Origin: Fimbriimonas ginsengisoli Gsoil 348
Lineage (GTDB): Bacteria > Armatimonadota > Fimbriimonadia > Fimbriimonadales > Fimbriimonadaceae
Assembly (NCBI RefSeq): GCF_000724625.1
Contig: NZ_CP007139.1
Location: forward strand, 3,968,001-4,032,000
Direction: 5' to 3'
Length of the DNA stretch: 64,000 nt
Position 1 is the stretch's first letter; each line of letters begins with the position of its first letter. A program made the position numbers and the translations under genes. The notes beneath the pieces are model-generated. The model was given only the letters and a program-made list of their open reading frames with translations, did no database searches and was not told where the DNA came from. Shown here one piece after another: positions 629 to 36,988 of this stretch.

Positions 629-1771
629 TCAGCCGCAATATTCCTTCAGAAGCATGTCGCCCAATTGGAAGTTGTTGTCCGAGGTTTCGACCACACCCGT
701 GTTGCAGCAGGTGAAGCAAACGGGTGTGGCGAGCAGCTCCTTCCCGATCTTCGGTTTGGTGATTACAACCTTTGTTTCCTCATCCGATTCGGAGATGACA
801 ACTTCAAAGGCCTGCTTTGAACGGACGGCTTGAGACCTGAAAGCCGATTCGGGAATGCGGTCGACGACGATTCTGGGGCCGTGGTAATTTGCCTCCGTGT
901 GTCGGTCGTGGAACACCGGTCTAATCTTGGGGAACGCGGCTCCATTGGCGGGCTTTTCGTCGGTGAGGACGGCGTTGCCCACTTCGGTGTCGCGTCCATC
1001 GTTTAGGTGCGTAAGCATGAATTGCCGGCCCTGGATGCAATCAACGATAAAATGAGCTCGCTCTTCGTCCGTAGGTTTTGGTTCGCCCTGGGGCCCTTGC
1101 ACGTCGAAGTGCAAGGTGCCAAATCGTTGGGTCTTGAAAGGAGTGGCGCCGCTCACCTCGGCGGTAAGGAGCGCGACACGCGCCGGAGTCAGTTCGCCGG
1201 CGAAGTTCGTGACCGCGATATGGGGTCTCCAATACCAGATGGTCAGCATCCTCGTAAGAACCGCGAACTCGGCGAGAAAGGCCCCGCGATTCATCATCGC
1301 CTGCTGTATTACTCCCAGTAAATCGTCAAGTGCTTTAGCCTCGGCGTGGGCGATGCCCCGATAGAGCTGCGGCGAAAATTCGAAGATCTTTCTTTCCGCC
1401 ATCACCTGGGTCACGAGCGATTTCTGAGGGTCGGAAAGCCCCGGCTGCAGGATACAGGCGATGTCCTCGTTAAAGACCCAATCCGGGTCGAAGTCCCCGG
1501 CGCCCCACTGAGTTCGCCGGTCGTCGAAGAAGCCCGTAGGATCCTCCAACAACCTGGCTAGCTCGGACCAATCTTCGGAGAAGTATTGGATTGCGTACTC
1601 TGGGTCCGGGTGTCCGAGGTTGGAGAGCTGGAACACCCCGGCGTGACCCTTGGGAATTTTGACTAGCGTTTCGAGAAACTCGGAGAGTAGCTCCCGTAAT
1701 GGCCCGGGAAAGCTTTCAATCAGCTCGTTAAGGCGAAAGGATTCGGGATAGAGGTCTTCGGGCGAGGGCAT
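629..1771 (-). CDS. Unknown 380-aa protein in an operon with the CHAT-STAND gene
   Basis: Not recognised. No signal peptide or membrane segment is visible. The last 29 residues are rich in cysteine (Cys352, 355, 356 and 379) and follow a charged stretch, so the C-terminus looks like a separate small element. The start is set by a strong Shine-Dalgarno (aaggag) before ATG at 1771. The gene lies 23 bp downstream of the CHAT-STAND gene on the same strand, so the two are almost certainly co-transcribed. By analogy with other CHAT proteases that cleave a neighbour-encoded protein it could be a substrate or effector, but that is inference from position only. Confidence 0.75.
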   Translation of the reverse strand: MPSPEDLYPESFRLNELIESFPGPLRELLSEFLETLVKIPKGHAGVFQLSNLGHPDPEYAIQYFSEDWSELARLLEDPTGFFDDRRTQWGAGDFDPDWVFNEDIACILQPGLSDPQKSLVTQVMAERKIFEFSPQLYRGIAHAEAKALDDLLGVIQQAMMNRGAFLAEFAVLTRMLTIWYWRPHIAVTNFAGELTPARVALLTAEVSGATPFKTQRFGTLHFDVQGPQGEPKPTDEERAHFIVDCIQGRQFMLTHLNDGRDTEVGNAVLTDEKPANGAAFPKIRPVFHDRHTEANYHGPRIVVDRIPESAFRSQAVRSKQAFEVVISESDEETKVVITKPKIGKELLATPVCFTCCNTGVVETSDNNFQLGDMLLKEYCG

Positions 1772-1794
1772 TGAGTACTCCTTCGTGAGGGTTG

Positions 1795-4700
1795 TTAGGG
1801 GGTGGTTGGGGGATGGAGGCGGTCTCCGGCGGCGAGGGTGGTGGCGACGGAGCGCCAGTCTCGACGGACGGTGCAGGCTTCGGCGTCGGCGATGAGAGAG
1901 GAGCCGTGGCGGGAGGCGAAATCCTCACGATATTTTCGCGCTTCGGCCCGGGCTTGGGGGGAGGCGTGGCGGGGGATCATTTCCCCGGCGACGATGGCGG
2001 CGGCAGCATCGGCGAGCTTTCCTTCTTGTTCCAAGGTGCGGGCCAACTCGAGGAGGCCGCGGACGACCGATTGGAGATGCCACAGCTCGAGCGCCTGGCG
2101 GATCAATCGGCGAGCGATGACTTCGCTACGGTAAAAGCTGCCGGCGGACCGGTAGACGATGGAGAGGCTCATCCAAATGAAGAGGGCTCGCGGCTCGGCC
2201 GGGAGATCGGCAATCAGATCTTCGGCCCGGCGTCCGGCATCGACGGCTTCCTCCTGTAACCCCCACCGGAGGGAAGCGCGGGCTTGGATAACCAATGCGG
2301 CGGCTCGGATGTGGGAGCTGATTCGAGCGCTTCCGATCTTTTCGATGCGAGCGAGCATGGCGTTTACGGTCTCGGGCTCGTCGAGCACGAGGCCGAGGCT
2401 GGCGATGTCGGTGTAGCTATCGGCAGCCATATCGAACTCGCCAATGGCTTCGCACCGTTTGGCCCGATCCAGCCAGTAGCCGGTGGCTTCGCTGGCGCGG
2501 TGTTCGCGCCGCATGCATTCGCCTTGCAAACCGCGTAATTCGATCAGTAGGTGCGGATCGTTGGAGGCGTCGGAGAGGGCGATCGGTTCGGCGAAGCTAA
2601 GGAGCAGGTCGAAATCGCTACGCAAGCCGGCTTCCAAATACCATCGCAGAATCGAACGAGCGAATTTGCGAACCAGCTCCTGATTTCGTTGCGCTCCGAC
2701 GAAGGCTACGGCGGCTCGGAAGTTGGCGGCGTCGGTCCAGAGGGCCGAGTTAGCGATTTGCCAGTGCCCTTGATCCCAGTCGTCTCGTAAACGGCTGGCT
2801 CGTCGGACGAAATACTCGGCATGGCGGAGCTGGACGGGGGCCAAAACATCGGGATCGCAATGACCTTCGACGTACTCTCGAACGGTGTCCAGAATGCGGA
2901 ATCGCAGTCCGCTGTCGGTATCGAAGGTGGAAAGCAGGGAATTCTCACGAAGGGCGGTGATACCGTCCAGGACATTGTCGGCGCCCCGGAGAACGGCTTC
3001 GGCGGCTTCCCAATCGAAGCCGCCGTGGAATACCGAGCACTCGTTCATAAGTGTGTGCTCGGCCGGGTTCAGCAGCTCAAATGAGCCTTGGACCACTTGG
3101 GCCATGTTGGCGTGCCGGTCGTTGCCGCTCCGCTGCAGCACTTGTAAGCGCTGCTGGTGGACTCGAGCGGTGAGCTGCTCGAGATCCATCGTGCGAAGAC
3201 GGCCGGCGGCGAGGATGATGGCGAGCGGCATCGCCTCGAGTGCTTCGACTAAGATTCGAACCTGCACGCGGTTCGCACGGGTGACTCGGAACGAGGATTT
3301 GGCCTGGGTTGCCGCCTGTTCGAAAAGATCGATCGCGCTTTGCAGAGGGGATCGGCCGCTGGAGACGAGGGGGCCAAGAGGGTACTCGTATTCGCCCGAG
3401 ACACCCAGAAGGCGCCGGCTGGTGACCAAGAGCTTGAATCCTGGCGCGGATCGAAGGAGACGGACGAGCAGATCCGCGTGGTCAACTAAACGTTCGAAGC
3501 AATCCAGCACCAGAAGAGCCCGGTTCCCGGCGAGGGCGTCGGAAAGGCGAGCTTCATCGTAGGCTTGGCCGTTGGGATCGAGCGCGGCACCCATGGCGCC
3601 GACCAAATCGGCTTCGCTGTGGATGGCGGTGCAGTCGATCCAGTGAGCTCCGCCTGAGAACTCGGGCGCCAGCTCTTGGGCCAATCCGAGAGCAAGCCGG
3701 GACTTACCCATTCCGCCAAGGCCGGTAATGGTAACGAGGCGAGAATCCGGACGGCGAATGCGGTCGGAGATTTCAAGTAATTCGGAAGTCCGGCCTAGGA
3801 ACGGGCGGTCTTCCGTAGGAAGACGCGGCTTGGGGCGAGCTACTCCGGCGGCGGAGCCCCTAAGCGTCAGCTCATCCGCATCCCCGTTGACGTATAGGAC
3901 CGGGGCGAACCATTCTCCTCCGCAACGGGCGAGCGCTCCACGGGCCTCGTGCACGGCTTCTGAGATTGGAGCGCAACGGACTAGGCCGCCGTAGAGCGCG
4001 GCGCAGAATTGGACGGCCGAGAAATCGGGGGTGGCGTTTTGGAATGCGACGACGGCAGGGATGCCGGTTTTCGCAAGGGTGTGGGCGAACACCTTGGTGT
4101 TGCACGCAGCGAGAACGACCAGGCTTGCCGAGACGTGTTTCGCCAATTTATCGGCGTAAAGCATATCGGCGGATCCTGGGCGGCCGGACTCAAGGGCGAG
4201 TGCGGCTCCGCTCGGTAGCTCGTTTGCATGTCCGGAAAAATGGATCAACCGATATTGGCGGCCGCTAAGGGCCTTGATGAGACCGTGTGGAGTGGCGGAA
4301 GGGAGTATGTCGACGTGGAATCCATGTTCACGTAAACCGGCGGCGATCCGCTCGGCTTCGCTGGAGACATTGGGGAGGGGTGGGTAATCGAGAGAGCCGG
4401 GATCGGCCCAAACCACGAGCGCGCAGGCGTCGGGGGTGGATTGCGCAGGGATTTGGTCGAGTTGCCGGACCCACCGGAGGCTGCCGATGGAGAGGAAACC
4501 ATGAATCATATCCCGGTGGCAGAGCCCCTCCCAGGGGATGTGCTTCGCGAGCTCGGCGGGGTCGAAGACGGCTAGTTGTATGGGACCGCGACCGGCAAAC
4601 TCCAGCAGGGATTGCCGGATCGCGCTGGGAAGAACGTAGGGAATAACCGCCTCGCTCCAGGCAACCCACTCGTCTTCGTTTGCGCTCAGAGGAGCTGAGG

Positions 4701-4839
4701 TCCGTTTCGGAAGCAGGGTGCTCTCTTCGGCGAGAATTCGCCCGGACAACTGGTCGGTAAGCGACAGATGCGTACTTTGATGGGATTGGTTAGAAATACC
4801 TACGCCTTCGGTCACGGTCAGGCGTAATCTTCGAGCCAC
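1795..4839 (-). CDS. CHAT protease / STAND (NB-ARC-like) ATPase / helical-repeat protein
   Basis: A 1014-residue signalling protein. The N-terminal part (about 90-325) is a CHAT caspase-like peptidase with the expected dyad: His204 in HFSGHA and Cys246 in LAACNT. Residues about 345-640 form a STAND-type P-loop ATPase: Walker A GLGGMGKS at 373-380, Walker B LLVLD near 442-446, and an LLVTSR motif at 470-475. The remaining ~370 residues are alpha-helical with a TPR-like pattern and probably form the sensor. This architecture occurs in bacterial conflict and programmed-death proteins, where ligand binding to the repeats drives oligomerisation and protease activation. No DNA-binding domain is present, unlike SARP/AfsR regulators. 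It starts at GTG. The 380-aa gene follows after a short gap. Confidence 0.88.
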   Translation of the reverse strand: MARRLRLTVTEGVGISNQSHQSTHLSLTDQLSGRILAEESTLLPKRTSAPLSANEDEWVAWSEAVIPYVLPSAIRQSLLEFAGRGPIQLAVFDPAELAKHIPWEGLCHRDMIHGFLSIGSLRWVRQLDQIPAQSTPDACALVVWADPGSLDYPPLPNVSSEAERIAAGLREHGFHVDILPSATPHGLIKALSGRQYRLIHFSGHANELPSGAALALESGRPGSADMLYADKLAKHVSASLVVLAACNTKVFAHTLAKTGIPAVVAFQNATPDFSAVQFCAALYGGLVRCAPISEAVHEARGALARCGGEWFAPVLYVNGDADELTLRGSAAGVARPKPRLPTEDRPFLGRTSELLEISDRIRRPDSRLVTITGLGGMGKSRLALGLAQELAPEFSGGAHWIDCTAIHSEADLVGAMGAALDPNGQAYDEARLSDALAGNRALLVLDCFERLVDHADLLVRLLRSAPGFKLLVTSRRLLGVSGEYEYPLGPLVSSGRSPLQSAIDLFEQAATQAKSSFRVTRANRVQVRILVEALEAMPLAIILAAGRLRTMDLEQLTARVHQQRLQVLQRSGNDRHANMAQVVQGSFELLNPAEHTLMNECSVFHGGFDWEAAEAVLRGADNVLDGITALRENSLLSTFDTDSGLRFRILDTVREYVEGHCDPDVLAPVQLRHAEYFVRRASRLRDDWDQGHWQIANSALWTDAANFRAAVAFVGAQRNQELVRKFARSILRWYLEAGLRSDFDLLLSFAEPIALSDASNDPHLLIELRGLQGECMRREHRASEATGYWLDRAKRCEAIGEFDMAADSYTDIASLGLVLDEPETVNAMLARIEKIGSARISSHIRAAALVIQARASLRWGLQEEAVDAGRRAEDLIADLPAEPRALFIWMSLSIVYRSAGSFYRSEVIARRLIRQALELWHLQSVVRGLLELARTLEQEGKLADAAAAIVAGEMIPRHASPQARAEARKYREDFASRHGSSLIADAEACTVRRDWRSVATTLAAGDRLHPPTTP

Positions 4840-5122: not shown

Positions 5123-5836
5123 TTATGGTCGGAGACCGTCGTTGTCTCCTTCTTCTCGGTACTTGCGCCGGCCCCGTTCTTCTCGGATCCCGACAACGTA
5201 GCCAACGATCTTCCACCCTTCGCCCGGTTTGATCTCGTCGTAGTCGGGGTTGATTGGGATGAGTACCCAGTCGCCTCGGCGCTGTTTGAGGATCTTGATG
5301 ACGTACTCGTGGGACTCGTTGCGGGCCACGGTTAAGAGACCGGCGGGCGGTTTGGGATCGGGGTGGACGAGGACGTATGCGTTGTGAGGGATGCGGCCTT
5401 CCATGCTCTCACCACGAACCCGGATGGCGAATCGATCGGGGTGGTAAAGGTCATCGCTAAACTCGACGTAGTCACCCCACTCGTCGGAGGTTTCAATAGG
5501 GAACGACGAAGCTCCGGCCGTCCCCAGCACCTTGAACAGGCGGCGACCCACGCCAGGAGTTACCGCGCCGTGGTGGGGGGCGGGGGCGTCACCTTCTCTG
5601 GGGGCGCCGGAGACGGAAGGAGGATCCTCGCGGCCACCGTCCCAAAACCAAGACTCGGGGACATCCCATATTCGCGCGAGCTTGCGCGTGACAAGGGCGG
5701 GCGGATCGGTACGGTTGCTCTCGTAGTTCGCGAGCTGATTGCGCGAAATTCCGATCAGACCGGCAAGCGCTTCTTGTGTAAGCTTGGGCCTTCGGGTCAG
5801 CCGGACGTGCCTGATTTTGTCACCGGGAGTTGCCAC
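5123..5836 (-). CDS. Phage-type repressor: XRE helix-turn-helix plus S24 (LexA/CI) peptidase domain
   Basis: Likely lysogeny regulator. An XRE HTH occupies roughly residues 5-55 (LTQEALAGLIGISRNQLANYE) and a C-terminal S24 domain about 100-230. The catalytic Ser is in RGESMEG, and the matching Lys is probably within YVIKILKQ. Such repressors dimerise on operators and self-cleave when RecA is activated by DNA damage. The frame is open to a TTG at 5875, but that codon lies inside a palindromic operator and the protein aligns better from GTG at 5836, so I use the shorter 237-aa form. It is divergent from the next gene, as expected for a CI-like switch. Confidence 0.88.
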   Translation of the reverse strand: MATPGDKIRHVRLTRRPKLTQEALAGLIGISRNQLANYESNRTDPPALVTRKLARIWDVPESWFWDGGREDPPSVSGAPREGDAPAPHHGAVTPGVGRRLFKVLGTAGASSFPIETSDEWGDYVEFSDDLYHPDRFAIRVRGESMEGRIPHNAYVLVHPDPKPPAGLLTVARNESHEYVIKILKQRRGDWVLIPINPDYDEIKPGEGWKIVGYVVGIREERGRRKYREEGDNDGLRP

Positions 5837-5863
5837 GGAATAATCATACCGCAGATATACCAA

Positions 5864-5877
5864 TTTTGTACACAAAA
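5864..5877. promoter_or_regulatory. Candidate repressor operator (TTTTGTACACAAAA)
   Basis: Perfect 6-bp inverted repeat around a central AC, in the intergenic stretch between the repressor and the divergent gene. Further TGTGTAT-like half-sites occur at about 5889-5907. Position and symmetry fit a repressor binding site controlling both directions. Confidence 0.5.
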
Positions 5878-13190: not shown

Positions 13191-13589
13191 ATGCCACATC
13201 AAGAGAATTCGATTTTTGCTCGGCGGGCGCAGGGGTATCGGGAGGAGGCGGGGGTGGTGGAGCGGTTGGCGAAGGCCGTCGTGGCATTGCCGGGGAGGGT
13301 GGCGGTGTTGATGGATGAGGTGGCGGAGACGTTTTGTGGGACCGGGATCCTGACGCCAGGTGGGAAGTTCGAAGGGAAGTTTCGGGACGATTGCGGGACG
13401 GTGGTAGCGAGTGGAGTTCGCGGCCTATGCCCCGGCGAGCGGGTGTTGGTGAAGCCGTACGACGGGTTGTGGATGGAAGACACCGACGCGGCCTGGGTGC
13501 CGAAGGGGCGGCAGGTCCGGTTTTACGGGGTGGCCTCGGAGTGGTGGGAATCGGTGGTGGCGAAGGTGACGCCGGAGCGTGCGGAATGA
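13191..13589 (+). CDS. GroES-like (Cpn10-fold) protein encoded with the head genes
   Basis: 132 residues. The middle follows the co-chaperonin pattern: VAVLMDEVAE (strand 1), GILTP (start of a mobile-loop-like element), GTVVASGVRGL (the conserved G-V-V/L-A-x-G), then GERVLVKPYDGLWMED. Phage co-chaperonins such as T4 gp31 work with host GroEL to fold the capsid protein, and position next to head genes fits. It is longer than canonical GroES (~97 aa) at both ends, so a capsid-related protein using the same fold is possible. ATG at 13191 has a ggagag Shine-Dalgarno; the last codon overlaps the portal start (ATGA). Confidence 0.65.
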   Translation: MPHQENSIFARRAQGYREEAGVVERLAKAVVALPGRVAVLMDEVAETFCGTGILTPGGKFEGKFRDDCGTVVASGVRGLCPGERVLVKPYDGLWMEDTDAAWVPKGRQVRFYGVASEWWESVVAKVTPERAE

Positions 13590-15397
13590 TTGATTTACTT
13601 GTATTGAGCGACGGGCAGAAGAAGAAGCTGGCGGAGCGGATCTGTAAGGAGATTGAGGCGTCGGAGCAGGCCAAGGGGTCGTTGCCGCAGCGGTGGGAGC
13701 GGAACGAGAAGATTTATGGGGTCGATCCGGACGTTAGCTCGCTTCATGTGGCGGAAGGGATGCAGCCGTATGCGATTCCGCTGTACCGGCAGAAAGCGGA
13801 CCGGGTGATCGGGACGATTTACAGCAGCATCACGGGGCTGTATCCGTTCGTCCAGGCGCTGGACGAGGATGCGGATGGGAACAACGACGAGGTGGTGGAG
13901 CGGGCGTTGCAGGCGATGGCGGACGACGCGCAGTTTAACTCGCGGTTTAAGAAGATCCTGAAGCTTGCCGTCAACACGAACATCGGGACGCTTCGGGTGT
14001 CGCCGGACTTTCCGAAGCATGGAGTCCGGATGGAGTGGATTCATCCCGGCAACATGATGTGCTACCCGGCGGAGAACGGGTGCTATGAAGAGGCGAAGAC
14101 GATCGGGCACCGGTTCTACAAGATGCGGTATCGGATCGAGGCGGAGCAAAACAGCGGGCACTACTACAAGGGCGAGATCTTCGGAGGAGACGATCCGAAC
14201 GAGCATTACTCGGGACGGTCCAGGACCCAGTCGAAGACGGAGACGACCTCGCCGGTTGTGAATGCGGACGACCAGGTGGAGCTTTGGGAAGTGGTTCACG
14301 AGAGCGACGTGGAAGAGGCCGGCGTGTACAAGCGCTACCTGTGCGTGGTGGCGAAGAACCAGACGAAGCTGCTGAGCTGTCAGCCGTTTCCCTATAGCGA
14401 GCCGTGGTACTTCGCGGGGAGATTGGAGGAGCCGGACGGGAACGTTTGGCCGGCCGACTCGCTGGCGCAGACGATGCAGGGACTTCAGCTCGCTTACAAC
14501 GACATCCATACCACGCTGATCCACGGATCGTATATGGCGGCGTTTCCGATGGTGGTCATCAGCGGGGGAACGCTCCCTACGAAGGTGAAGAAGTACGGAC
14601 CGGCGACGCTGATCGAGTCCTCGACCGAGCTCAAGGTTCAGGCGCTGACGACGGGATTCAATCCGGGGGCGCTGCCGATGGAGGGGGCGAAGCTGGAGCA
14701 GGTGGCGGACGGGCTCACGGGGATTTCGCGCTTGGGAACGAGCGAGAACATGCCGAGTGGGACGACGGCGACGGCGGCGGCCGGATTCTTGCAGGCTCAG
14801 AATGAGGCGAAGGACCAGTACACGGAGGCGATGAGCCCGTTCGTGCAGCGGGTTTGGGGATTCCTTTACGAAGTTCTCACCCTGCACTTCGAAGAGGTGG
14901 CGGCGGCGCTGGGCTCGAAGTGGCCTCGGGAGCTGACGTGGGAGATGATCCGCGGGAAGTCGTACCGGTTCGAGGTGACGGGGAAGTCCGGATCGTCGAG
15001 CCCGCAGACGCTCTTGAACAAGCTTCAGATGTTGCTGCAGCTTTCGGCGGACCCGCAGAGCGGGTTGGACCGGCGGGAGATCACAGAGAAGATCGTTCAG
15101 GCGCTGGACCTTCCGTTCAGCGCGCAAGGGTTGAAATCGAAGCCGCCAGCGATCGACCCTCAGGAGATTTTGCAACTGCTACAGGCGGTGGCGGGCGGGC
15201 AGGTGCCGGTTCCGCAGGCGGCCCAGGTTCTACTTACGGATATTCAAAATGCCACGCAAACCAACGGCGGATCAGGTTCGGGCGCTATGGCGCTCTCCCC
15301 AATGGCGGGAGGCGGTGTTGCCGGCCCTGGAGGGGCTCCGGGCCCGGTGCCTGGACCAATTGGCGGCAACGCGCCCCAGCCCCGACAAGGATTTTAA
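13586..15397 (+). CDS. Portal protein
   Basis: 603 residues, typical of podovirus-type portals. Evidence is size, position right after the terminase, and a predominantly helical sequence with a portal-like middle (EPWYFAGRLEE, TMQGLQLAYND, ADGLTGISRLGTSENMPSG) and a Pro/Gly/Ala-rich C-terminal tail. The dodecameric portal is the vertex channel for DNA packaging and exit. ATG at 13586 overlaps the previous stop; the open frame extends further upstream but only through another gene. The 3' end overlaps a small gene by 149 bp. Confidence 0.88.
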   Translation: MIDLLVLSDGQKKKLAERICKEIEASEQAKGSLPQRWERNEKIYGVDPDVSSLHVAEGMQPYAIPLYRQKADRVIGTIYSSITGLYPFVQALDEDADGNNDEVVERALQAMADDAQFNSRFKKILKLAVNTNIGTLRVSPDFPKHGVRMEWIHPGNMMCYPAENGCYEEAKTIGHRFYKMRYRIEAEQNSGHYYKGEIFGGDDPNEHYSGRSRTQSKTETTSPVVNADDQVELWEVVHESDVEEAGVYKRYLCVVAKNQTKLLSCQPFPYSEPWYFAGRLEEPDGNVWPADSLAQTMQGLQLAYNDIHTTLIHGSYMAAFPMVVISGGTLPTKVKKYGPATLIESSTELKVQALTTGFNPGALPMEGAKLEQVADGLTGISRLGTSENMPSGTTATAAAGFLQAQNEAKDQYTEAMSPFVQRVWGFLYEVLTLHFEEVAAALGSKWPRELTWEMIRGKSYRFEVTGKSGSSSPQTLLNKLQMLLQLSADPQSGLDRREITEKIVQALDLPFSAQGLKSKPPAIDPQEILQLLQAVAGGQVPVPQAAQVLLTDIQNATQTNGGSGSGAMALSPMAGGGVAGPGGAPGPVPGPIGGNAPQPRQGF

Positions 15398-25124: not shown

Positions 25125-26438
25125 ATGTTTCCACTTTCACAGATAGGTCAAATCCTCGACCTCGCCGCGCAGCAAGACGATAACCGGACGGGCTCCGCGA
25201 ACTTGCCCGGAACGAGCTTAGGGCGAGATGGTCGGGTGTGGATGCCCGCCGCATCCAGCCAGCAAGCCTCGGGCGACACTATCTGGGCAACGCTGCACCG
25301 GTTAGCCGACAAATTTCCAAACGAGCTCCCGTCCGCCATCAATGACTATGCGATCCAATTCGCTCAAACCATTAAGTCGCTGGTAGAAGCCGGCTCAAGG
25401 AGCGGGCAAAGATCGGATTCGACGCCTCCGCCTCCCGACTACGCGAAGTTGACGCGGGACGCGTATGACGGGATCAATCGCGGCGGCGATATGGCGGCCA
25501 AGGCCTATTCGCTCCCTTACCCGGCCGCCGTCCATCCTGCGCTGCGCTCGCGCGACCTCTTGACGGGGCTGTTGCCGGCGCTTCTCATGGCGGTGGCGGA
25601 TAAGCATGGGCGGGCAGACGCGGTCGGGCAGTTCGTGCAGCAGTACATGGGGGGCAAACAGCGGACGGCCGACGAGGCGAACCAGGCCGCGGCGGCGGAT
25701 TATGCCCGCCGAGTTCAGCAGATGCAGGCTCAAGGGGCCAATGAAATCAGTCGGGGCCAGACCCAACTCGGATACCTGAACGATATGCAGCGGTTGGACG
25801 CCCGAAACCCGCAAGCCCCCGCGCCCGCCGGTCCCGCGGCGCCTGGTGCGCCGGCGGACATGGCCACCATGGGACAAACCATAGCGCCGGCGGCGGCTTC
25901 GCCCGCTCGTCTGCATTCGTGGGGGCCGCTGACGCCCCATGCGGCGGCGGACATCCAACAGAGGGTTGCGAATTACGACCCAGAGTTCAAAGCTCGGGCC
26001 GGCGATCGGATGGCGGCGGTCGCCCATTTGGAGCGTCAGTCGGTCGGCGCCAAGGATCTCAACTGGGTGGCTCCGCTGAAGGCGGCCTATGACCAGGCGC
26101 TCAGCGTGAACCGGGCGCAGATCGCTCGGATTCTGGAACGAAACAAGAAGAACCTTCCGGTTTACGACCCGGAGGAACCGAATTCGGCGGAGTCGCTCGA
26201 GGCGATGCGATACCAAGCGCTGGTTGAGGAAGGAGGCAGGCTCCGCACAAACTCGACGCAACTCGGAGGGTTGATGAGCCGAATGAAGACTCGCAACGTC
26301 CCTCCAAGGGTCGCCGCGAGCCCGAGGTACGAAAACTCGCCCACTCGGCAATCGAGCGCGGCAATCACCCCGCAAGGTCCAAGGTCCGCCGTTCGGCAAA
26401 CGAGCTCGGGACGACGATTTCACGTGGTGGGCGGCTGA
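25125..26438 (+). CDS. Toxin-array upstream protein A1 (ejection-protein-like)
   Basis: 437 residues. The frame is open from a GTG inside the terminator hairpin, so I start at ATG 25125 with an aaggaa Shine-Dalgarno. Mostly helical, Ala/Gln-rich, with a Pro/Ala linker (APAPAGPAAPGAPADM) between two helical halves. No enzymatic motif. Two later, incomplete copies exist: its C-terminal half at 29209-29808 and a fragment of its middle at about 33605-33722, each in front of another toxin gene. Position after tail genes fits an internal virion/ejection protein that could carry or assemble with the toxins. Its stop shares one base with the next start. Confidence 0.7.
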   Translation: MFPLSQIGQILDLAAQQDDNRTGSANLPGTSLGRDGRVWMPAASSQQASGDTIWATLHRLADKFPNELPSAINDYAIQFAQTIKSLVEAGSRSGQRSDSTPPPPDYAKLTRDAYDGINRGGDMAAKAYSLPYPAAVHPALRSRDLLTGLLPALLMAVADKHGRADAVGQFVQQYMGGKQRTADEANQAAAADYARRVQQMQAQGANEISRGQTQLGYLNDMQRLDARNPQAPAPAGPAAPGAPADMATMGQTIAPAAASPARLHSWGPLTPHAAADIQQRVANYDPEFKARAGDRMAAVAHLERQSVGAKDLNWVAPLKAAYDQALSVNRAQIARILERNKKNLPVYDPEEPNSAESLEAMRYQALVEEGGRLRTNSTQLGGLMSRMKTRNVPPRVAASPRYENSPTRQSSAAITPQGPRSAVRQTSSGRRFHVVGG

Positions 26439-28591
26439 TGAGAATCCTGCTTCAAACAAAGCTCGGACCCAAGCTCGTCGAGTTCGACTCGACTCCTTCG
26501 GATGCAGATATCGACGAAGCGGCCGCCTCCATCGAAGGAGACGATTCGGACTCTCGGGGGCCGATATCATCAAAGCCGCTCGCTCTACAGCGTCGCCCGG
26601 GCGCTCCAAAGGCACGAGTGCAGATAAGCCCACCTTCGCCGGCGCCAAACACGGATTTCCGGAGCATCAGGCAACGTGTTGCGTCGGGCGACCCGCTCGG
26701 ATTGAACTCGCCACCCGCGCCCAAGCCCCAACCGAAAACCCAGACCGTTACGGACGACCTAAATCGTATTGTTAGTCAGGCAAAGCAAAAGCAACTGAAG
26801 GCGCCTGTCTTCACCTATCAGGGGAAGAAGTTTAGGGGCGACCCGTTTGGTGGCTTGTCGTTTTCGCAATCGGCGTACGAGCATGCCCTGAATTGGGGGT
26901 TGCCCTTCGTGGAAGGACGAGACGGATCTTCCGTCGATCTTCGCACGGCAATGACGCAAGTGAGCCGCGTTACCGGCATCGCCAGCTTCCGGAACACCAA
27001 GACGCCCGATCAAGTCGCGGCGGAACAGGAACGTTTCGACTACACCGGTGGCGGAAAAGTCGGACTCGGAAAGTCATTTGGTTTCGAGCGTTCGGCGGAA
27101 GGGGAAATACCGCGTGAGGCCGTTCCAATTAGGAGAAAGCGGCGAATCGACCCCAGAACCGGAAAGGTGGCCACGACTGAGTCGGGTGACTTGCTAGGCG
27201 CTAACGAGGAAGTGGAAACCGAATTCAAGAACCGGGTGGCCGATTTCCTTCACATTGCACGAGACAATCCTGTGCTTGGCCATGTCGTTGGCGCCGCAAA
27301 CCCCTTCCCACTGGTAACCGATCTTTTTATTATTCAGGACCCGAACGAGCCTTTCAAAGAGCAGATGAAGGCAGTCGGTCGAGTTGCGGAGGCCGCGGCC
27401 ACTGCAAAAGCTGGCAGTCTGATTTCCGAAACGCTGCTGCGCTATGCCAAGGGACCGGTGTTGAATTGGCTTCGGAATGCCTATGGTCGCGTGGTTGGGT
27501 CGCATGTCGATCCAGAGATGGTTGGAAATCCGTTCCACGTAAGTTATGAAGGCGATCCTCACGGAACGTATGCTCCTGAGGAAGGAAAGCTGATTCGTGA
27601 GGGAGAGCCGCCACCAGGTTCAAGTGACACCACCACCTTGCAAAGGGGGCCGACGCCGGAAACGGGTCGGCCCTCTTCCGTTTTGGAAGCAGGGGCGCGC
27701 GAACGGACTAATCCTCATGGGGGCGCTGGGCAAGACATTGGATTGCCTCAGCAGGAGTCGGACAAGAAGCCGCTCACACTCGATCAGCTACAAGAAAAAT
27801 ACCACGATGGCCAGCCGGGGGATAGATTCCAATTGGGCGTTTCAGACGGAAAAGGCTTTGTAAACGTGCGACGGCATGGATCGCTAGTCGAGGCCGATAG
27901 CATTCCTTTAACTGAGAAGGAGGAGAAGGCTCTTGCTGCCGCGTTATCTTCGAAGGAGAAAGCAGAAGCATTTTGGAAGTCCAGGGTTTCCGAATCAATT
28001 CGAAATAAAATGGTAGATTTCTCAGCAATCCTTCGTCGGGTTCGAGCAGGGGACACCATCCGGGATTCGATGGGAAAAAGGGGAATCGTTCTTGACGAGG
28101 TCAGAGGGGCGAGGCCCAGCGAGGATCGTTTCTCCGTAGCCTATGAAGACGGCAGTCAGGGGATGGTTGACCCTGGAAGGACGACGCTCGTTAAGGAGGG
28201 AGCACCGCTAGGTTTAGACGACGCCACCAAGGTTTGGGATGGTGACTCCGCAACCGTTGGTCACGCGCCCTCCTCCGATTACGCTACGACCTTCTTTAAT
28301 GCTTTCCCTCACCTTAAGGGCAAAGTGTACATTCATCATGCAGTCGAGCGGCGTGTCTTAAACAAGTATCCAAATCTTTGCACCCCGGAGCAGATACATT
28401 CTTTGGAGAACCTTCGAGGAATTCCGTGGAAGTCAAACCCAAAGGTTCACCTTTCTTATATCCGCATCGAATGGAATAAGTTCTATAAGGCACATCCAAA
28501 TGCTACGATGGAGCAATTGCTTCAAAAAGCCACGGAAATTGATGCGAAATACGGGGGTCAGTTTCGACCTCATGTAAGCCGTGAAAAATGA
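26438..28591 (+). CDS. Polymorphic toxin B1 with C-terminal HNH-type nuclease domain
   Basis: 717 residues. N-terminal residues 17-33 hold a short acidic element (STPSDADIDEAAASIEG) of the type found at the start of many phage internal proteins and shared in spirit with toxin D1. A Pro/Ala-rich linker follows, then a long middle region, two related short beta repeats (about 365-390 and 545-590), and a C-terminal domain of ~90 residues. Conserved polar residues there are His633-His634 (HHAVERR), Asn658 (LENLRG) and His671 (VHLSYIRIEWN), the spacing expected of an HNH/Endo VII-type nuclease seen at the ends of Rhs and other polymorphic toxins. GC drops over this domain. The stop overlaps the immunity gene (ATGA). 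Confidence 0.75.
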   Translation: MRILLQTKLGPKLVEFDSTPSDADIDEAAASIEGDDSDSRGPISSKPLALQRRPGAPKARVQISPPSPAPNTDFRSIRQRVASGDPLGLNSPPAPKPQPKTQTVTDDLNRIVSQAKQKQLKAPVFTYQGKKFRGDPFGGLSFSQSAYEHALNWGLPFVEGRDGSSVDLRTAMTQVSRVTGIASFRNTKTPDQVAAEQERFDYTGGGKVGLGKSFGFERSAEGEIPREAVPIRRKRRIDPRTGKVATTESGDLLGANEEVETEFKNRVADFLHIARDNPVLGHVVGAANPFPLVTDLFIIQDPNEPFKEQMKAVGRVAEAAATAKAGSLISETLLRYAKGPVLNWLRNAYGRVVGSHVDPEMVGNPFHVSYEGDPHGTYAPEEGKLIREGEPPPGSSDTTTLQRGPTPETGRPSSVLEAGARERTNPHGGAGQDIGLPQQESDKKPLTLDQLQEKYHDGQPGDRFQLGVSDGKGFVNVRRHGSLVEADSIPLTEKEEKALAAALSSKEKAEAFWKSRVSESIRNKMVDFSAILRRVRAGDTIRDSMGKRGIVLDEVRGARPSEDRFSVAYEDGSQGMVDPGRTTLVKEGAPLGLDDATKVWDGDSATVGHAPSSDYATTFFNAFPHLKGKVYIHHAVERRVLNKYPNLCTPEQIHSLENLRGIPWKSNPKVHLSYIRIEWNKFYKAHPNATMEQLLQKATEIDAKYGGQFRPHVSREK

Positions 28592-29016
28592 AATATTATC
28601 TTGTAAATCCAGAAGTCGCAGGAGGCTACGATGAGCACTCCGTAGTAGATCGAAGCGTTCATCCGCCGATTGTCAGCCGGCTCAACTACGAGTTCGACGA
28701 CTGGCTCGGAGACGCTATTGTGGAGTCGTTTCCCGTTTATATCGTGACGGAACAAGCCGCGCGCGAAATAAGGAAAGCGGGACTGACCGGGGCGGTATTT
28801 GACGATATGGAGACTTCCATTTCGGACACGTTTAAGCAGTTAAACTCGGATTCGAACTGGCTGCCCAAGTTCGTTTGGCTTAAACCGGAAGGTGTTGCCG
28901 GCAAAGACGACTTCGGTACTGTACAGCCAACCACGCTCGTTCTATCTCAACGAGCGGTCAATCTCTTTGCCAGGCTTGGATTCAACCACGCCGAGATCGA
29001 GCCCTACGTTCCATAG
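28588..29016 (+). CDS. Candidate immunity protein I1 for toxin B1
   Basis: 142 residues, overlapping the toxin stop by 4 bp, small, soluble and acidic with no signal peptide: the usual features of a cognate immunity protein. Characteristic stretches are MKYYLVNPEVAGGYDE, VHPPIVS, FDDWLGDAIVESFPVYIVTE and KPEGVAGKDDFGTVQPTTL. A highly similar second gene (33040-33468) follows the second copy of the same toxin domain, which strengthens the pairing. I do not assign it to a numbered Imm family. Confidence 0.75.
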   Translation: MKYYLVNPEVAGGYDEHSVVDRSVHPPIVSRLNYEFDDWLGDAIVESFPVYIVTEQAAREIRKAGLTGAVFDDMETSISDTFKQLNSDSNWLPKFVWLKPEGVAGKDDFGTVQPTTLVLSQRAVNLFARLGFNHAEIEPYVP

Positions 29017-29208
29017 GCAGCGATTGCCTCTAATGGGTGTCTTCCCGCGTGGCGGGTTCCGGATTTAGTGACGTGCCTGTTGTCGGCGCATGCGCCGGCG
29101 GGAAACCACCGACCGCGCCCGCTTCCCCCGCCGAGCGCTCCCGTGGAGAAGGCGAAGGATGTAAGAACGGGGCGCTGACCGCCCTGGCTCCGTACCTCGG
29201 CCGGACGC

Positions 29209-29808
29209 GTGGGGGTCGTTGACGCCCCATGCGGCGGGGACATCAAACAGAAGGGTGCAAATTACGACCCGGAGTTCAAAGTTCGGGCGGGAGACCGAAT
29301 GGCGACGCTCGCCCATTTGGAGCGTCAGCTGGCCGGCTCCAAGGATCTCAACCTGGTGGCTCCGCTCAAAGCGGCCTACGACCAGGCGCTCAGCGTGAAC
29401 AAGGCGCAGATCGCTCGGATCCTCGACCGAAACAAGAAGAACCTCCCGGTTTACGACCCCCAGGATCCCAACTCGGCGGAGTCGCTCGAAGCGGCGAGAT
29501 ACCAAGCGCTCCTGGAGGAGGGAGGCCGGCTCCGGGCCAAGTCAACGATGCTCGGAGAGTTAATGAGTCGACTGAAAACTCGAAACGTGCCTACCCAGCA
29601 AGGGGCGACGACGCCAGTCAACCCCCTCGCCGGCTCGATTGGGGCGCGCGGCTCGAAGTTGCAAGTCCGCGCGATCCCAAAGCGGCCCTCGCCACAAGCC
29701 GCATTGGATCGACAGCAGGGGCTCGAGTTAATCAAGCAGCACCCGGACAAGGCAGCCGCGATTCGGGCGCGCTTCAAGAGGACGCACGGGGTGAACATCG
29801 GTGGCTAG
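29209..29808 (+). CDS. A2: 5'-truncated copy of the A gene upstream of toxin C1
   Basis: 199 residues. From residue ~17 it is closely similar to the C-terminal half of A1 (YDPEF then RAGDRMA, AHLERQ, KDLN, VAPLKAAYDQALSVN, QIARIL then RNKKNLPVYDP). Near the 5' end it has a 1-base deletion relative to A1 (GCGGCGGGGACATC against GCGGCGGCGGACATC), so the first codons are out of the original frame. The last ~60 residues differ from A1. Its stop overlaps the GTG of C1. The 192 bp before it (29017-29208) are GC-rich and unrelated to A1. It may be expressed as a short protein or be a decaying copy. Confidence 0.6.
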   Translation: MGVVDAPCGGDIKQKGANYDPEFKVRAGDRMATLAHLERQLAGSKDLNLVAPLKAAYDQALSVNKAQIARILDRNKKNLPVYDPQDPNSAESLEAARYQALLEEGGRLRAKSTMLGELMSRLKTRNVPTQQGATTPVNPLAGSIGARGSKLQVRAIPKRPSPQAALDRQQGLELIKQHPDKAAAIRARFKRTHGVNIGG

Positions 29809-31762
29809 ACCTGGTCTCTACGACGACATCATCAACCCCGGCCCTTCGCGGCAAAGAGGGTTGTACGACGACATCATCGCGTCACCACCCGCCAAGAGTA
29901 GCGCTCCCTCACTCGCCTCCTTGCAGGCGAAACGAGCGGCGCTCATGGAGTCGGCTAAGACCGCCGACCCGGACAGCGTTCAATCCATCAATGCCCTCAT
30001 CGCGGGGCTGAACAAGCAGATCGAGTCATACACGGGAAAAGATAACTCCGCGCGAATTCGCCATGCCGGAGATACGATTCCGCGGCCGAGCCCAAGTGTT
30101 CCGGCAGGGTCAGCCACGGGTACCGGGTTGCCGGGGCAATTGGTCGACTGGGGGAGCGCTCTGCATCAGCTAGGCGCGATCTACGCCGACGGGAATCGGG
30201 ACTCGCAAGGGAAAGCCCCCGCCCTTCGGGCGGTCGTGCGGGCGAAACGCGGAGAACTGCAAAGCAAGGTCGACAGTTACAATGCACGTCTCCCGCTAGG
30301 GGAGGTGGGGGTGAACGAAGGAGCGCAAGGTAGGCAGTGGCAACAGGCTATTAACGCCATCGATGCCCACCGAAACTGGTGGGGGAGCTCTGCGATGATT
30401 CGACATGCCGGCGACCGTATTCCTACGCCGGGGCCGATCCCTGATCCGTATGTAACTGGTGGAGAGAGCGATGGAGGGCACGACGCAAGCCTGACCGCTT
30501 TCTCGCTTTCGCTAGCGTCCATGGGTGGTGGTGGCACTCCCCCGCTAAATCCTTACTTTGTGGCGGGAGTGGACCCGACGAGCGACTCCTATCAGAAATC
30601 GATCCATAACATTGCCTCCGACTATCGAGCCGGAACCCAAAAGATTCTGTCTGCTCCCCGAAAGGCGATCCACGCCGCATCTGACGCTATAAGTATGGCG
30701 ACCGGTGGCCAGCATATTGACCCAAGCATCTATGAAAACGACGCTCCTTGGTACACGATCGAGGGAGCGTCCCGGGCATCTAACAAGATTGCGGAAAATC
30801 TGCCTTACGCGGCTCCTGGCGTCGGCCAAGCGTTGATGCTCACGCAACTTATGGACCAGAGCGCGGCGTTCGTCTCGAACCCCAAGGCGGCTGCGATCGA
30901 GCTTTGGCACGGCGCAAATCCGTTCCAAAGCGGCATCCAGTGGGAGGATCGCCTAATGCGCTCCGCGGTGATCATCGGGCTTCTTAGGCGCGGAAAGGTG
31001 ATGGTCGACGACTTCCAGATCAAAGCTCAACTACGTGGTTTGGGAGCGAGCGCAGATGAAGCGGCAACGACCGTCAACCTTGCCCGTCAGGGCATGGCAA
31101 AAGGATACGGAATCGACCTGAAAGGCGAACTGGTCGGCATTGCAAAACAATATGGTCGACCTGAGGTCGAAAATCTTGCAAAGAAAATGTATTCCGGAAG
31201 TAAGTCCGAATACGCTTCGACCCAAACGGGACTTGGAAAAGGAGTACAAAGTCAGCAACCGACTGAGGCGCAGCAGGGCGCTTCGCCAACTGCCCTTATC
31301 GGAGTCACACGCCAAAGCCAGTTTAAGAGTGCCGCCGAATTTGCCATCGCAGTTCGTGACAACCCGGCGATGAAAGACAGACTTACAGTGGGTAATCTCA
31401 GTGCAACGTCCGCGGATCTAATCTGGCGCAGCACGGGGATTCGACTAAAAGGGCCTTTCGCTATTAGAATTTACGGCGATGGTATAAGGCATGCGCTGAA
31501 TCGACACGGAAATGAAATCCATGGACAAATGTCGATTGCACCTGAAGATTTCAACTTGATCGAGGATGCTATTAATAATCCTGATCGAATCCAAAAAGAC
31601 ATCGAAAGTGGACCCGATGGCAAACCCAGGATTGTTTTCGAAAAGACAAATAAAGGGAAAATATTTGTCGTGACAGCAATCTACGAACCTAGGCGCGCCA
31701 ACAAAGCGGTTGGTGAACTGCGTTTTGTCACGATGTATAAGCACAAAGCAGAACGACAGTGA
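29801..31762 (+). CDS. Polymorphic toxin C1 with C-terminal PBECR-type nuclease domain
   Basis: 653 residues, GTG start overlapping A2's stop. N-terminus has two GLYDDII motifs (residues 5-11 and 20-26), then a helical region with RHAGDTIPRPSPS and IRHAGDRIPTPGPIPD linker repeats also present in D1. The C-terminal ~103 residues (551-653) match the pattern of the PBECR family (phage barnase-EndoU-colicin E5/D-RelE-like nucleases): RHALNRHGNE with His564 and His569, GQMSIAPEDFNLIEDAINNPD, IVFEKTNKGKIFVVTAI and FVTMYKHKAER. These domains are predicted RNases. No immunity gene follows; a repeat and a degraded second toxin end do. Confidence 0.75.
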   Translation: MARPGLYDDIINPGPSRQRGLYDDIIASPPAKSSAPSLASLQAKRAALMESAKTADPDSVQSINALIAGLNKQIESYTGKDNSARIRHAGDTIPRPSPSVPAGSATGTGLPGQLVDWGSALHQLGAIYADGNRDSQGKAPALRAVVRAKRGELQSKVDSYNARLPLGEVGVNEGAQGRQWQQAINAIDAHRNWWGSSAMIRHAGDRIPTPGPIPDPYVTGGESDGGHDASLTAFSLSLASMGGGGTPPLNPYFVAGVDPTSDSYQKSIHNIASDYRAGTQKILSAPRKAIHAASDAISMATGGQHIDPSIYENDAPWYTIEGASRASNKIAENLPYAAPGVGQALMLTQLMDQSAAFVSNPKAAAIELWHGANPFQSGIQWEDRLMRSAVIIGLLRRGKVMVDDFQIKAQLRGLGASADEAATTVNLARQGMAKGYGIDLKGELVGIAKQYGRPEVENLAKKMYSGSKSEYASTQTGLGKGVQSQQPTEAQQGASPTALIGVTRQSQFKSAAEFAIAVRDNPAMKDRLTVGNLSATSADLIWRSTGIRLKGPFAIRIYGDGIRHALNRHGNEIHGQMSIAPEDFNLIEDAINNPDRIQKDIESGPDGKPRIVFEKTNKGKIFVVTAIYEPRRANKAVGELRFVTMYKHKAERQ

Positions 31763-31862
31763 AATGGCGCGCTGCTGCGTGAAGCTTTCGCCTCCTTGAG
31801 CTCTACGTCCGAAACGTCACGCGCCTAAGGTCATGATATCACATTTTGGCCGGCATCAAGCC
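31762..31862 (+). repeat. 100-bp imperfect repeat, copy 1, directly after toxin C1
   Basis: Starts at the last base of the C1 stop codon. Similar to 32062-32161 (GGCGCGCTGCT, CGTGAAG, CCTTGAGC, GTCACGCGCC). Read in the C1 frame past the stop it encodes NGALLREAFASLS..., and copy 2 encodes NGALLREVLASLS..., so it may once have been coding. Probably a recombination or duplication boundary. Confidence 0.55.
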
Positions 31863-31879
31863 GAAAGCCATTAATTCGT

Positions 31880-31969
31880 GTTAATGGCAATTTTTGCGCC
31901 AAGCAATCTCGACAAGGAGCGGGCGAAATTAGGTTTATAACCATGTACAAGCATCGAACAGCTCGTTAA
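31880..31969 (+). pseudogene. Relic: C-terminal end of a second PBECR toxin
   Basis: Frame 31880-31969 ends GAGEIRFITMYKHRTAR-stop, matching the final residues of C1 (AVGELRFVTMYKHKAERQ). Only this last piece of the toxin remains, so it marks an earlier PBECR cassette displaced by recombination. Confidence 0.6.
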
Positions 31970-32061
31970 CAATGGAGCCTTAACGATGACATGAGCCCCG
32001 GGGAACAATTTCCAGTCGGCATAACGCAAGGGTTGGCCCTATCCCCGACCGATCGAAAGAG

Positions 32062-32161
32062 CAACGGCGCGCTGCTTCGTGAAGTTTTGGCTTCCTTGAG
32101 CAAACGTCTAGAACGTCACGCGCCCAATTGGACTATACGATATTTTTGTTGGCACGAAGCC
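32062..32161 (+). repeat. 100-bp imperfect repeat, copy 2, directly before the broken HNH toxin
   Basis: Second copy of the repeat that follows C1. The toxin fragment homologous to B1 starts within about 15 bp after it. The 92 bp before it hold no recognised gene. Confidence 0.55.
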
Positions 32162-32174
32162 GAGCACGCCTGGC

Positions 32175-33043
32175 GTCCCAACGCCGGACCAATTGCAGGA
32201 GAATTTTGACGATGGCCTGCCGGAGTATCGAGTGGCGACCGGAGCCTCCGATGGGAAGGGCGTTGTCAGTGTCCGACGTCGCGGATCGCTCGTCAACGAT
32301 GCGCGCCTTACTTTGACCAAGGCGGAAAATCGGGCGGTCGCTGCCGCCGAGAGCGCTTCTATTGAAGACCGCAATTCATTTTTTGGTCTTCTCCTGCATC
32401 GCAGTCGATTCGGAAGAAGATCGAAAAGTCATTGATCAGCCGGCGAAGGGTCCTGGCAGGCGACCTCATTCAGGATTCGATGGGAAGGAGGGTGATTGTT
32501 CTCGGAGAGATCGAAGCTTGGACCGCGGATGAAAATCGGTTCCACGTTAGGTACGGAGACGGTTCCGAGGGGTTGGTCGCCCCCGAAAGAGCAAAGCTCG
32601 TTCGGGAAGCAGAGCCACCGCCAGGAAAAACTAATACCACCCGCCAAAGAGGGCCGACACCGGAAACGGGTCGGCCCTCTTTGGTTCTGGATGAGCCCGA
32701 TTCGACTGTTGGGTATGCGAAGTCGAAAGAGTACCGGGAAACCTTTCTGAAGAAGAACCCGCACCTTGGAAGGGAAGTTGTCGTTCATCATGCTGTCCCC
32801 CAGCATGTCTTAGTGAAGTATCCAAACCTCTTCACTCCAAATGAGATACATTCTCTGGAGAATCTCAGGAGGATTCCGAAGGAGCTTGATTCGACCCTTC
32901 ATCATCGGGACATTCGCGGCGAGTGGAACCGATTCTTTAGAGAGAATCCGACTACAACAAGGTCAAAGATTTTTCGGAAGGTTAGGGAAATCGCTGCGAT
33001 GTATGGGCATCAGTTTGTTCCTCCTGTAAGAGGCGGTAAGTGA
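32175..33043 (+). pseudogene. Broken HNH toxin copy B2 (frameshifted)
   Basis: Matches B1 from VPTPDQLQENFDDG (B1 LTLDQLQEKYHDG) to the end. The first part, to about 32378, reads in one frame. The rest (SQSIRKKIEKSLISRR... to the end) reads in another; the shift lies at or near a run of six Ts (32378 region). The nuclease motif is intact in the second frame (VVHHAVPQHV, IHSLENLRRIP, HHRDIRGEWN). No N-terminal export or packaging region is present. The end overlaps immunity gene I2 by 4 bp (GTGA). It is an orphan toxin cassette unless the shift is a sequence error or is programmed. Confidence 0.7.
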
Positions 33044-33468
33044 AATACTATCTAGTAGAACCGGAAGTGGCAGGAAGTTATGATGACGACTCCCAGGTGG
33101 ATAGGAGCGTTCATCCGCCGATTGTCAGCCATCTCAACTTTTCTTTCGACGACTGGCTTGGAGACGCCATCGTTCAGTCGTTTCCTGTATACGTCGTGAC
33201 GGAGCAAGCTCAGCACGAGATAAGAAAGGCCGGGCTGTCCGGTGCCGTGTTCGACGACATGGAGGTTTCCCTTTCGGGAATGTTCGAACAGTTACACTCG
33301 GATTCGAACTGGTTGCCCCGATTTGTGTGGCTTAAACCGGAAGGCGTTGCCGACAAAGACGACTTTGGGACCGTACAGCCAACCACGCTCGTTCTATCCG
33401 AACGAGCAGTGGATCTCTTCACGAGGCTTGGCTTCAATCACGCCGAAATCGAGCCGTACGTTCCTTAG
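33040..33468 (+). CDS. Candidate immunity protein I2 (paralogue of I1), intact beside a broken toxin
   Basis: 142 residues, GTG start overlapping the B2 end. Clearly paralogous to I1 along its full length (FDDWLGDAI, SFPVYVVTEQA, FDDMEVSLS, KPEGVADKDDFGTVQPTTL, FNHAEIEPYVP) with many substitutions. That the immunity gene is intact while its toxin is frameshifted is typical of orphan toxin/immunity modules kept for protection against related attackers. Confidence 0.75.
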   Translation: MKYYLVEPEVAGSYDDDSQVDRSVHPPIVSHLNFSFDDWLGDAIVQSFPVYVVTEQAQHEIRKAGLSGAVFDDMEVSLSGMFEQLHSDSNWLPRFVWLKPEGVADKDDFGTVQPTTLVLSERAVDLFTRLGFNHAEIEPYVP

Positions 33469-33604
33469 CGAGATCGATTCGCTGATCGTTATTTCTTACA
33501 CGTTCGACTCTTTTCGAGTTCCGATGCCTTGCCTCTGGAAAGCTAAATAAATAGATTGGCCCTCAGGTGGTAATGGGACTTGTGAGCCAAGCCGCTAGTT
33601 TCCC

Positions 33605-33953
33605 CAAATCTGGATTACGCAAAGACGACTCGTGAAGCGTACGACTCGATCGGCCACGGTAACGATACGGCGTCCGACGCCTATTGGCTCCCTTACCCGA
33701 ATCTGGTCCATCCGGAATGCCGCTTCCTCTGTCCGGATCTATCTCGGGCTCACAAGTCAGGCCGGCCGAAATCGGTTCGAGCATTCCGGGCGGGGTAACG
33801 GATATCCGGGTAACGGGAAATTTCCCCCTCACCGTCGGTGCGACGTCGCAGGCGGAGATGCCGCCGGGACGCTATCCATTTCCAGGTCGATCGGCTAGCA
33901 CCAGATCCGCTCCGCGCAAGGTCGGCCAGCTCACGTTCATCCCTAAGCGATAA
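33605..33953 (+). pseudogene. Relic A3: fragments of an A-like gene in front of toxin D1
   Basis: About 33605-33722 encodes NLDYAKTTREAYDSIGHGND...YWLPYPNLVHP in one frame, matching the A1 middle (PDYAKLTRDAYDGI, YSLPYPAAVHP). The sequence 33717-33953 is open in another frame (MPLPLSGSISGSQVRPAE... to a stop 3 bp before the D1 ATG) and has a partner at 36716-36772. Both look like pieces of a former A copy or its neighbour. The stretch 33469-33604 shows nothing recognisable. Confidence 0.5.
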
Positions 33954-33956
33954 CCC

Positions 33957-36197: not shown

Positions 36198-36277
36198 TGC
36201 GAGGAAATGCGAATGACAAAAAACCGGTTCCGTGAGAAGCCAGCATGCTGTATCATTAAGAGGGGCTGAAAATTGAC

Positions 36278-36481: not shown

Positions 36482-36715
36482 GGCAGGAGAGGGTAAGGCT
36501 CTCCCAACTTTGAACGGGGTTTCCTCAGGTCAGATACTGTCCTGAGTCCTGGACGGTGAGTCTGAGGAAGAGGCAAGTTTCAGGGCGATCCATAGCCTTC
36601 AAGCGGCGATCGGCGAACGGCGTGCCGCAATCGCCGAATTCGACGGCAGTTCGATAAAGCTTCAGAGGAACATCGCCGCCTAGCGGCGAACGCTCAAGCC
36701 ACCCGCCACCGGCGA
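36482..36715. other. Intergenic sequence between I3 and the D2 relic
   Basis: 234 bp with no gene. It contains short imperfect inverted segments (TTTCCTCAGGTCAG... CTGTCCTGAG; TAGCGGCGAACG). I see no promoter or coding signal that I can support. Confidence 0.3.
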
Positions 36716-36910: not shown

Positions 36911-36988
36911 CGGGGTCCCGCTGGTGAAAATAAATTGGTCCCTTGAGAAAACAGAAGCCAGTATTATTAATGAAGAACGAAAATGAAG

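Follow-up and report, generated by a model that had tools for sequence, protein, structure and literature searches.

What does a bacterial protein that joins a caspase-like protease to a STAND NTPase and a long repeat array do at the edge of a phage island? The protein, P0001, is encoded near one end of the 64,000-nucleotide stretch analysed here (the window), which comes from the single chromosome of Fimbriimonas ginsengisoli Gsoil 348T (5,231,762 bp; PMC4072686). A first-pass annotation of the DNA had proposed a death effector acting in immunity against phages. The conserved genomic company of its relatives suggests that P0001 may turn on gene expression rather than merely killing the cell.

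Anatomy of the CHAT-STAND-TPR protein

P0001 comprises 1014 aa, starts with a GTG codon and has the following parts:

1795..4839, minus strand: CHAT-STAND(NB-ARC)-TPR protein P0001 (open reading frame, Pfam CHAT and NB-ARC, subfamily profile, fold search hits PH0952 and Apaf-1)
3859..4659, minus strand: CHAT caspase-like protease domain, aa 61-327 (subfamily profile; H200, H204 and C246 invariant)
4228..4230, minus strand: codon of catalytic His204, unchanged in 12/12 CHAT domains
4102..4104, minus strand: codon of catalytic Cys246, unchanged in 12/12 CHAT domains
2770..3828, minus strand: STAND/NB-ARC NTPase and winged-helix part, aa 338-690 (Pfam NB-ARC, profile, model pLDDT ~80-95)
3703..3705, minus strand: codon of Walker A Lys379, unchanged in 10/10 homologues
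1840..2682, minus strand: C-terminal TPR-like helical solenoid, aa 720-1000, presumed sensor (AlphaFold2 pLDDT ~85-96; PDB TPR profile matches)

Pfam matched CHAT at residues 90-303 (1.6e-25) and NB-ARC at residues 358-587 (3.8e-7), and the subfamily profile bounded the CHAT, STAND and TPR parts at 61-327, 339-689 and 720-999. By its profile match and the order of its catalytic residues, His then Cys, P0001 belongs to the CHAT protease family PF12770; the NB-ARC profile, the Walker A lysine, the winged-helix part and the repeats likewise place it among STAND/NB-ARC proteins. Both the His204/Cys246 dyad and the Walker A motif had been described as intact, and both are conserved in relatives as well: His200, His204 and Cys246 are invariant in an alignment of 12 CHAT domains, and the Walker A residues G373, G375, G376, G378 and K379, together with D446, in 10/10 full-length homologues. 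An AlphaFold2 model built from 17 sequences (mean pLDDT 70.8) gave a confident NB-ARC/winged-helix part followed by a helical-repeat solenoid over residues ~340-1005, in agreement with the long repeats noted earlier, whose role as a sensor is presumed. The CHAT part was modelled poorly because the alignment is shallow there, homologues scarcely covering CHAT. When the model was submitted to Foldseek, the top hit was the STAND-TPR sensor PH0952 (2.9e-13) and the second was Apaf-1, and a profile search matched TPR proteins in the PDB to the C-terminal region. No match to a DNA-binding domain was found in P0001, as the annotation had stated. Together the domain matches, the fold and the invariant residues show that the original observation is correct and goes beyond chance. 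Judged by its sequence, this bacterial protein is related to the immune receptors of animals and plants (NLR-like), with a caspase-like protease attached.

The combination of an NB-ARC/STAND switch with a helical-repeat sensor is common to P0001, PH0952, MalT, AfsR and Apaf-1. AfsR and MalT have a DNA-binding domain of their own, and Apaf-1 recruits a separate caspase, whereas P0001 carries its caspase-like domain in the same polypeptide. Antiviral STAND (Avs) proteins, built of an N-terminal effector, a STAND NTPase and C-terminal repeats, have the same overall layout; P0001 differs from them by its sigma/anti-sigma-like association and by giving no PADLOC match. This build, similar to that of Apaf-1-like and antiviral STAND proteins, and the intact catalytic residues are what favour a death effector, in which P0001 would sense a phage and oligomerise, and CHAT would degrade essential or pore-forming host proteins and so cause abortive infection. 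We consider this unlikely, for reasons that include the failure of PADLOC models to recognise P0001: in PADLOC-DB 2.0.0, neither P0001 nor its neighbour P0002 had a match at 0.1, and other CHAT-module members matched SAVED_CHAT alone (3.9e-12, a CHAT-containing model) plus weak others.

Sigma factor and ORF2 as genomic companions

In relatives, P0001-like genes form a module made up of an ECF-type sigma factor, ORF2 and the CHAT-STAND-TPR protein; roughly half of these loci also have partner genes. The CHAT subfamily (all members under E=1e-78, the next best hit at 1e-26) and the sigma+ORF2 pair (full-length sigma only, with G036 counted through its own-profile ORF2 match, 6e-18) are confined to the same 10 of 85 Fimbriimonadaceae genomes, and both are missing from the other 75. 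The chance of such an overlap is ~1 in 3e12 (1 over C(85,10)) if genomes are taken as independent, a figure that is really less extreme because they share descent. Eight genomes have the three genes side by side, at 10 loci in all, and pairwise identities of sigma and CHAT correlate (r=0.71), which partly reflects the common descent of the genomes. The two halves of the module in G025 lie at contig ends with a common minisatellite and are therefore probably neighbours; these minisatellite-like repeats separate the CHAT gene from the partner genes (L026 end, L030 start; contigs C25, C7), at an apparent assembly break. No promoter motif common to the module genes rose above shuffled controls. 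A single-protein pattern search of the contig collection returned no close relatives of P0001; an alignment query of the same collection found mainly generic STAND proteins, the module being carried only by L094, which is the same contig as G019:C81. Compared with phages, P0001 showed no more than partial STAND or CHAT similarity.

Two of the loci depart from the simple arrangement. In G032 (L034 2517-9094) the CHAT-STAND-TPR genes are tandemly duplicated downstream of a single sigma-ORF2 pair. The CHAT-STAND-TPR gene of G019:C81 (L031 7379-10513; identical in L094) carries two in-frame TGA codons, with sigma, ORF2 and partner open, and is either a decayed copy or an assembly error.

In F. ginsengisoli the module is split. 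Its only full-length sigma and ORF2 genes lie at ~2.711-2.7134 Mb (ORF2 at ~2.7123-2.7134 Mb) and have a partner gene of their own beside them, 1.26 Mb from the CHAT gene (3.97 Mb), which adjoins another partner; the functional link in this genome therefore rests on relatives. The closest CHAT homologue by score is that of G017 (L021), where sigma-ORF2 lies divergently upstream and a partner downstream. The window looks like this layout minus the sigma-ORF2 half, with the phage island in the expected place, and the island may conceivably have displaced that half. Given the split, and the two TGA codons that break the homologous gene of G019, the CHAT-partner unit of the window might be a relic, either non-functional since its separation from sigma-ORF2 or recruited to another pathway. 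We give this very little weight: the P0001 frame is open for 1014 aa and retains all invariant catalytic and Walker residues, and the sigma-ORF2 pair is likewise intact elsewhere in the genome.

The sigma gene was identified by profile comparison. Eight of ten family members match TIGR02937 (best 9e-9), as expected for sigma region 2, and the family profile retrieves ECF structures from the PDB, including RpoE/SigE, at 1e-7 to 1e-6. For region 4, some of the PDB alignments reach position 191 (1or7), and Pfam matched one member only (E=0.33). On these matches, the module's sigma gene is assigned to a diverged ECF sigma family. ORF2 (~300-390 aa) has no match in Pfam. Its N-terminal ~70 residues show a pattern resembling zinc anti-sigma domains, with the H-x3-C-x2-C zinc ligands missing from every aligned ORF2 sequence. 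When compared with six genuine zf-HC2 domains of the same genome, an ORF2-only N-terminal profile aligned in register with an hhalign score of 23.7 and P=2.6e-4 (a weak match, with a probability of 43-78%), while 30 column-shuffled controls scored <=10.4 with P of 0.2 or worse; a wider profile set gave P=1.8e-5. These values hint that the ORF2 N-terminus may be anti-sigma-like, distantly.

The same segment recurs in a different setting. We read seven CHAT-less two-gene loci consisting of sigma and STAND-TPR (L082-L088), and the ORF2 profile finds the N-termini of the STAND-TPR proteins adjoining sigma in L084 (1.7e-8), L082 (6.7e-6) and L085 (1.2e-3), with unrelated neighbours at 0.05 or worse; in the STAND-TPR proteins of the other 4/7 loci the match is not significant. 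The presumed sigma-binding segment therefore appears to be sensor-borne where there is no protease and to sit on a separate protein where there is one. That it is separate wherever the sensor has CHAT is expected if the protease acts on the segment's carrier. For the proposed death effector the consequence is mixed: the anatomy and the catalytic residues stand, and the residues' conservation in relatives passes the check that the annotation had set for them, but nothing specific supports death, and what strictly accompanies the CHAT subfamily is a sigma/anti-sigma-like pair.

The partner family and a proposed relay

Immediately downstream of P0001 and co-directional with it lies a second gene, overlooked in the first-pass annotation and beginning 23 bp 3' of the CHAT stop:

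629..1771, minus strand: partner gene P0002, 380 aa, of an undescribed family whose homologues adjoin STAND-TPR genes or sigma-ORF2 pairs
1778..1783, minus strand: AAGGAG, resembling a ribosome-binding site, ahead of P0002 (direct sequence reading)
635..718, minus strand: conserved C-terminal segment of P0002 (C352, C355, K376, Y378 and C379 invariant in the 8 closest homologues)

P0002 matched nothing in Pfam, NCBIfam or PADLOC. At the profile threshold, homologues occur in 10 of the 291 genomes of the phylum, and more divergent partners at other loci were linked by profile comparison (hhalign P=1.6e-6). The most constant feature of the homologues is the last 20-60 residues, with 1-3 cysteines and KxY near the end; a Cys and KxY are retained in nearly all distant homologues, and in P0002 the conserved segment is preceded by a variable linker. 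A single-sequence structure prediction was uninformative (pLDDT 33). Kinship of the partner with ORF2 or with anti-sigma domains was also considered and rejected, as no similarity was found. F. ginsengisoli has three copies, in the window, at 2.7138 Mb and at 0.341 Mb; the last (L025 7874-8962) is solitary: across the 18 kb read there, no gene for STAND, sigma or ORF2 was recognised. A search of plasmids found no partner.

Partner genes lie beside CHAT-STAND-TPR genes in the window and G017, as well as in G004, G005 and G019, where the two genes converge. Their neighbours are cyclase-STAND-TPR genes in G044, G016, G035, G106 and G068, a BTAD-STAND-TPR gene in G098, and sigma-ORF2 in G000 (F. 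ginsengisoli), G003 and G025. No partner was recognised at the CHAT loci of G012, G032 and G036. As the partner adjoins protease-free cyclase- and BTAD-STAND-TPR proteins and is missing at some CHAT loci, it tracks the STAND-TPR chassis and not the protease, a pattern that favours a function in sensing or control. By their predicted domains, the nucleotide cyclase and the BTAD activator are signalling outputs, alternative N-termini on the partner-linked chassis. No recognised killing domain was found among the CHAT, cyclase and BTAD outputs beside partners, and a cyclase and a transcription activator in this position speak against a death effector. The same distribution bears on whether P0002 itself is the substrate, CHAT cutting near its Cys-containing C-terminus to give an active fragment, with sigma-ORF2 merely a co-regulated neighbour. 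In the window and G017 the partner directly adjoins the CHAT gene in the operon, and beyond a variable linker its C-terminal segment is conserved; the C-terminal domain of Csx30 is likewise recognised by its protease (PMC10028731). However, the family also adjoins sensors that have no protease and is unrecognised at three CHAT loci, and we regard P0002 as quite an improbable substrate.

We favour ORF2 as the target. In our judgement it is somewhat better than an even bet that P0001 is a ligand-gated caspase-like protease that inactivates the anti-sigma-like ORF2 and thereby frees sigma, in analogy to Csx29-Csx30-CASP-sigma and CalpLTS but without CRISPR. The proposal starts from the anatomy, the conservation of catalytic residues, gene association and co-occurrence, the sigma identity and the distantly anti-sigma-like N-terminus of ORF2; from there we infer ligand activation, ORF2 cleavage, sigma release and the role of the partner. 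The TPR solenoid would sense a ligand, possibly together with the co-encoded partner, and the STAND domain would assemble in an ATP-dependent manner and switch on the CHAT protease. The activated protease would then cleave ORF2, which as an anti-sigma-like protein would otherwise keep the ECF-type sigma inactive, and the freed sigma would change transcription. No cleavage site was identified in ORF2. In F. ginsengisoli the separate CHAT-partner and sigma-ORF2 pairs would work in trans; in most relatives a single locus holds all the parts. P0001 is thus better described as the putative sensor-protease of a sigma-factor signalling module that is split over two loci in Gsoil 348.

Relief of sigma inhibition by a CHAT protease is experimentally known: in Csx29-Csx30-CASP-sigma, cleavage of the sigma inhibitor by the CHAT protease has been demonstrated (PMC10028731). 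In that type III-E CRISPR system (Craspase), as in the P0001 module, CHAT and TPR (Csx29 is TPR-CHAT) are tied to an ECF-type sigma and its inhibitor. The two differ in that the CHAT of P0001 is N-terminal on an NLR-like STAND NTPase, and in that ORF2 cleavage is our prediction. Neither Cas7-11 nor CRISPR genes or arrays were recognised among the genes read at the window locus and related loci, and ORF2 showed no recognised similarity to Csx30. CalpL-CalpT-CalpS, consisting of a type III CRISPR Lon protease, CalpT and the sigma CalpS (PMC11417357, PMC12751052), resembles the proposed module as a signal-activated protease that elicits a transcription response via a cleaved inhibitor and a sigma; CalpL, however, is a Lon protease with a SAVED domain that senses cyclic oligoadenylate, whereas P0001 is CHAT-STAND-TPR. 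Caspase-ECF sigma neighbourhoods have been predicted by Kaur and colleagues (PMC8195603). In these EACC2-caspase-ECF systems, a predicted conflict or signalling system with EACC2 fused ahead of the caspase, a caspase-superfamily protease also neighbours an ECF sigma; the P0001 protease is part of a STAND-TPR protein and is accompanied by the anti-sigma-like ORF2 and a new partner family. DUF1822, a TPR neighbour of those systems, had no match among the proteins scanned. The combination of CHAT-STAND-TPR, sigma, ORF2 and partner was not described in the literature searched, which held few subscription-journal papers or preprints.

A wider version of the proposal, which we hold tentatively and rate below even, is that Armatimonadota possess a CRISPR-independent NLR-like sensor whose attached caspase-like protease destroys an anti-sigma-like protein and releases an ECF sigma, with one partner common to CHAT, cyclase and BTAD versions. 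If true, caspase-to-sigma relays would be a general route from NLR-like bacterial sensors to transcription rather than a peculiarity of CRISPR type III-E, and one circuit would exist in two wirings, with the anti-sigma-like segment on a protease-free sensor or on a separate protein alongside a protease. ORF2 would then be a concrete substrate prediction for a group of CHAT-STAND proteins in bacteria that are mostly labelled just as putative death or defence effectors.

The phage island and its surroundings

The island begins right beside P0001, and its recognised genes include:

5123-5875, minus strand: CI/UmuD-like repressor, right beside P0001
11658-13028: large terminase
13334-15397: portal/head-tail adaptor

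It occupies ~5.1-37.7 kb of the window (its right edge roughly estimated), and recognised host-type genes (nadC, MatE, class II tRNA synthetase) start at 40.8 kb. The first-pass annotation took a place just outside such an island as usual for defence genes. The island does start there, but the position is atypical of the family: CHAT relatives lie outside phage settings, so that finding the gene next to an island is a peculiarity of this genome and lends defence little support. In an empty-site test of a possible joint arrival of the CHAT-partner pair with the island, synteny downstream of rluB was lacking in relatives. While the adjoining island counts in favour of a death effector, the relatives sit among ordinary chromosomal genes outside recognised defence islands, and the nearby genes include no recognised known lethal substrate. 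A phage-triggered defence role for P0001 is possible.

The published 45.5-kb prophage of Gsoil 348 has its 20-bp core at 130.5 and 176.0 kb and so is distinct from the island in the window. Positions 5123-37700 thus hold a second phage-like element, apparently absent from the paper describing the 45.5-kb prophage. Within it, the region 25906-37338 contains long direct repeats of 300 nt (86%, 71%), 223 nt (85%), 108 nt (79%) and 78 nt (76%), which suggest duplicated modules. Finally, a GC-rich palindromic repeat, GGCACGGGCGGCTCGCCCGTG, occurs in the window at 45989-46044 and 58713-58768. It has 74 copies genome-wide at <=1 mismatch, against zero for the reversed sequence used as control, and from its sequence and distribution is classed as a REP-like dispersed element; repeats resembling it also lie at 11218 and 13128, inside the island.
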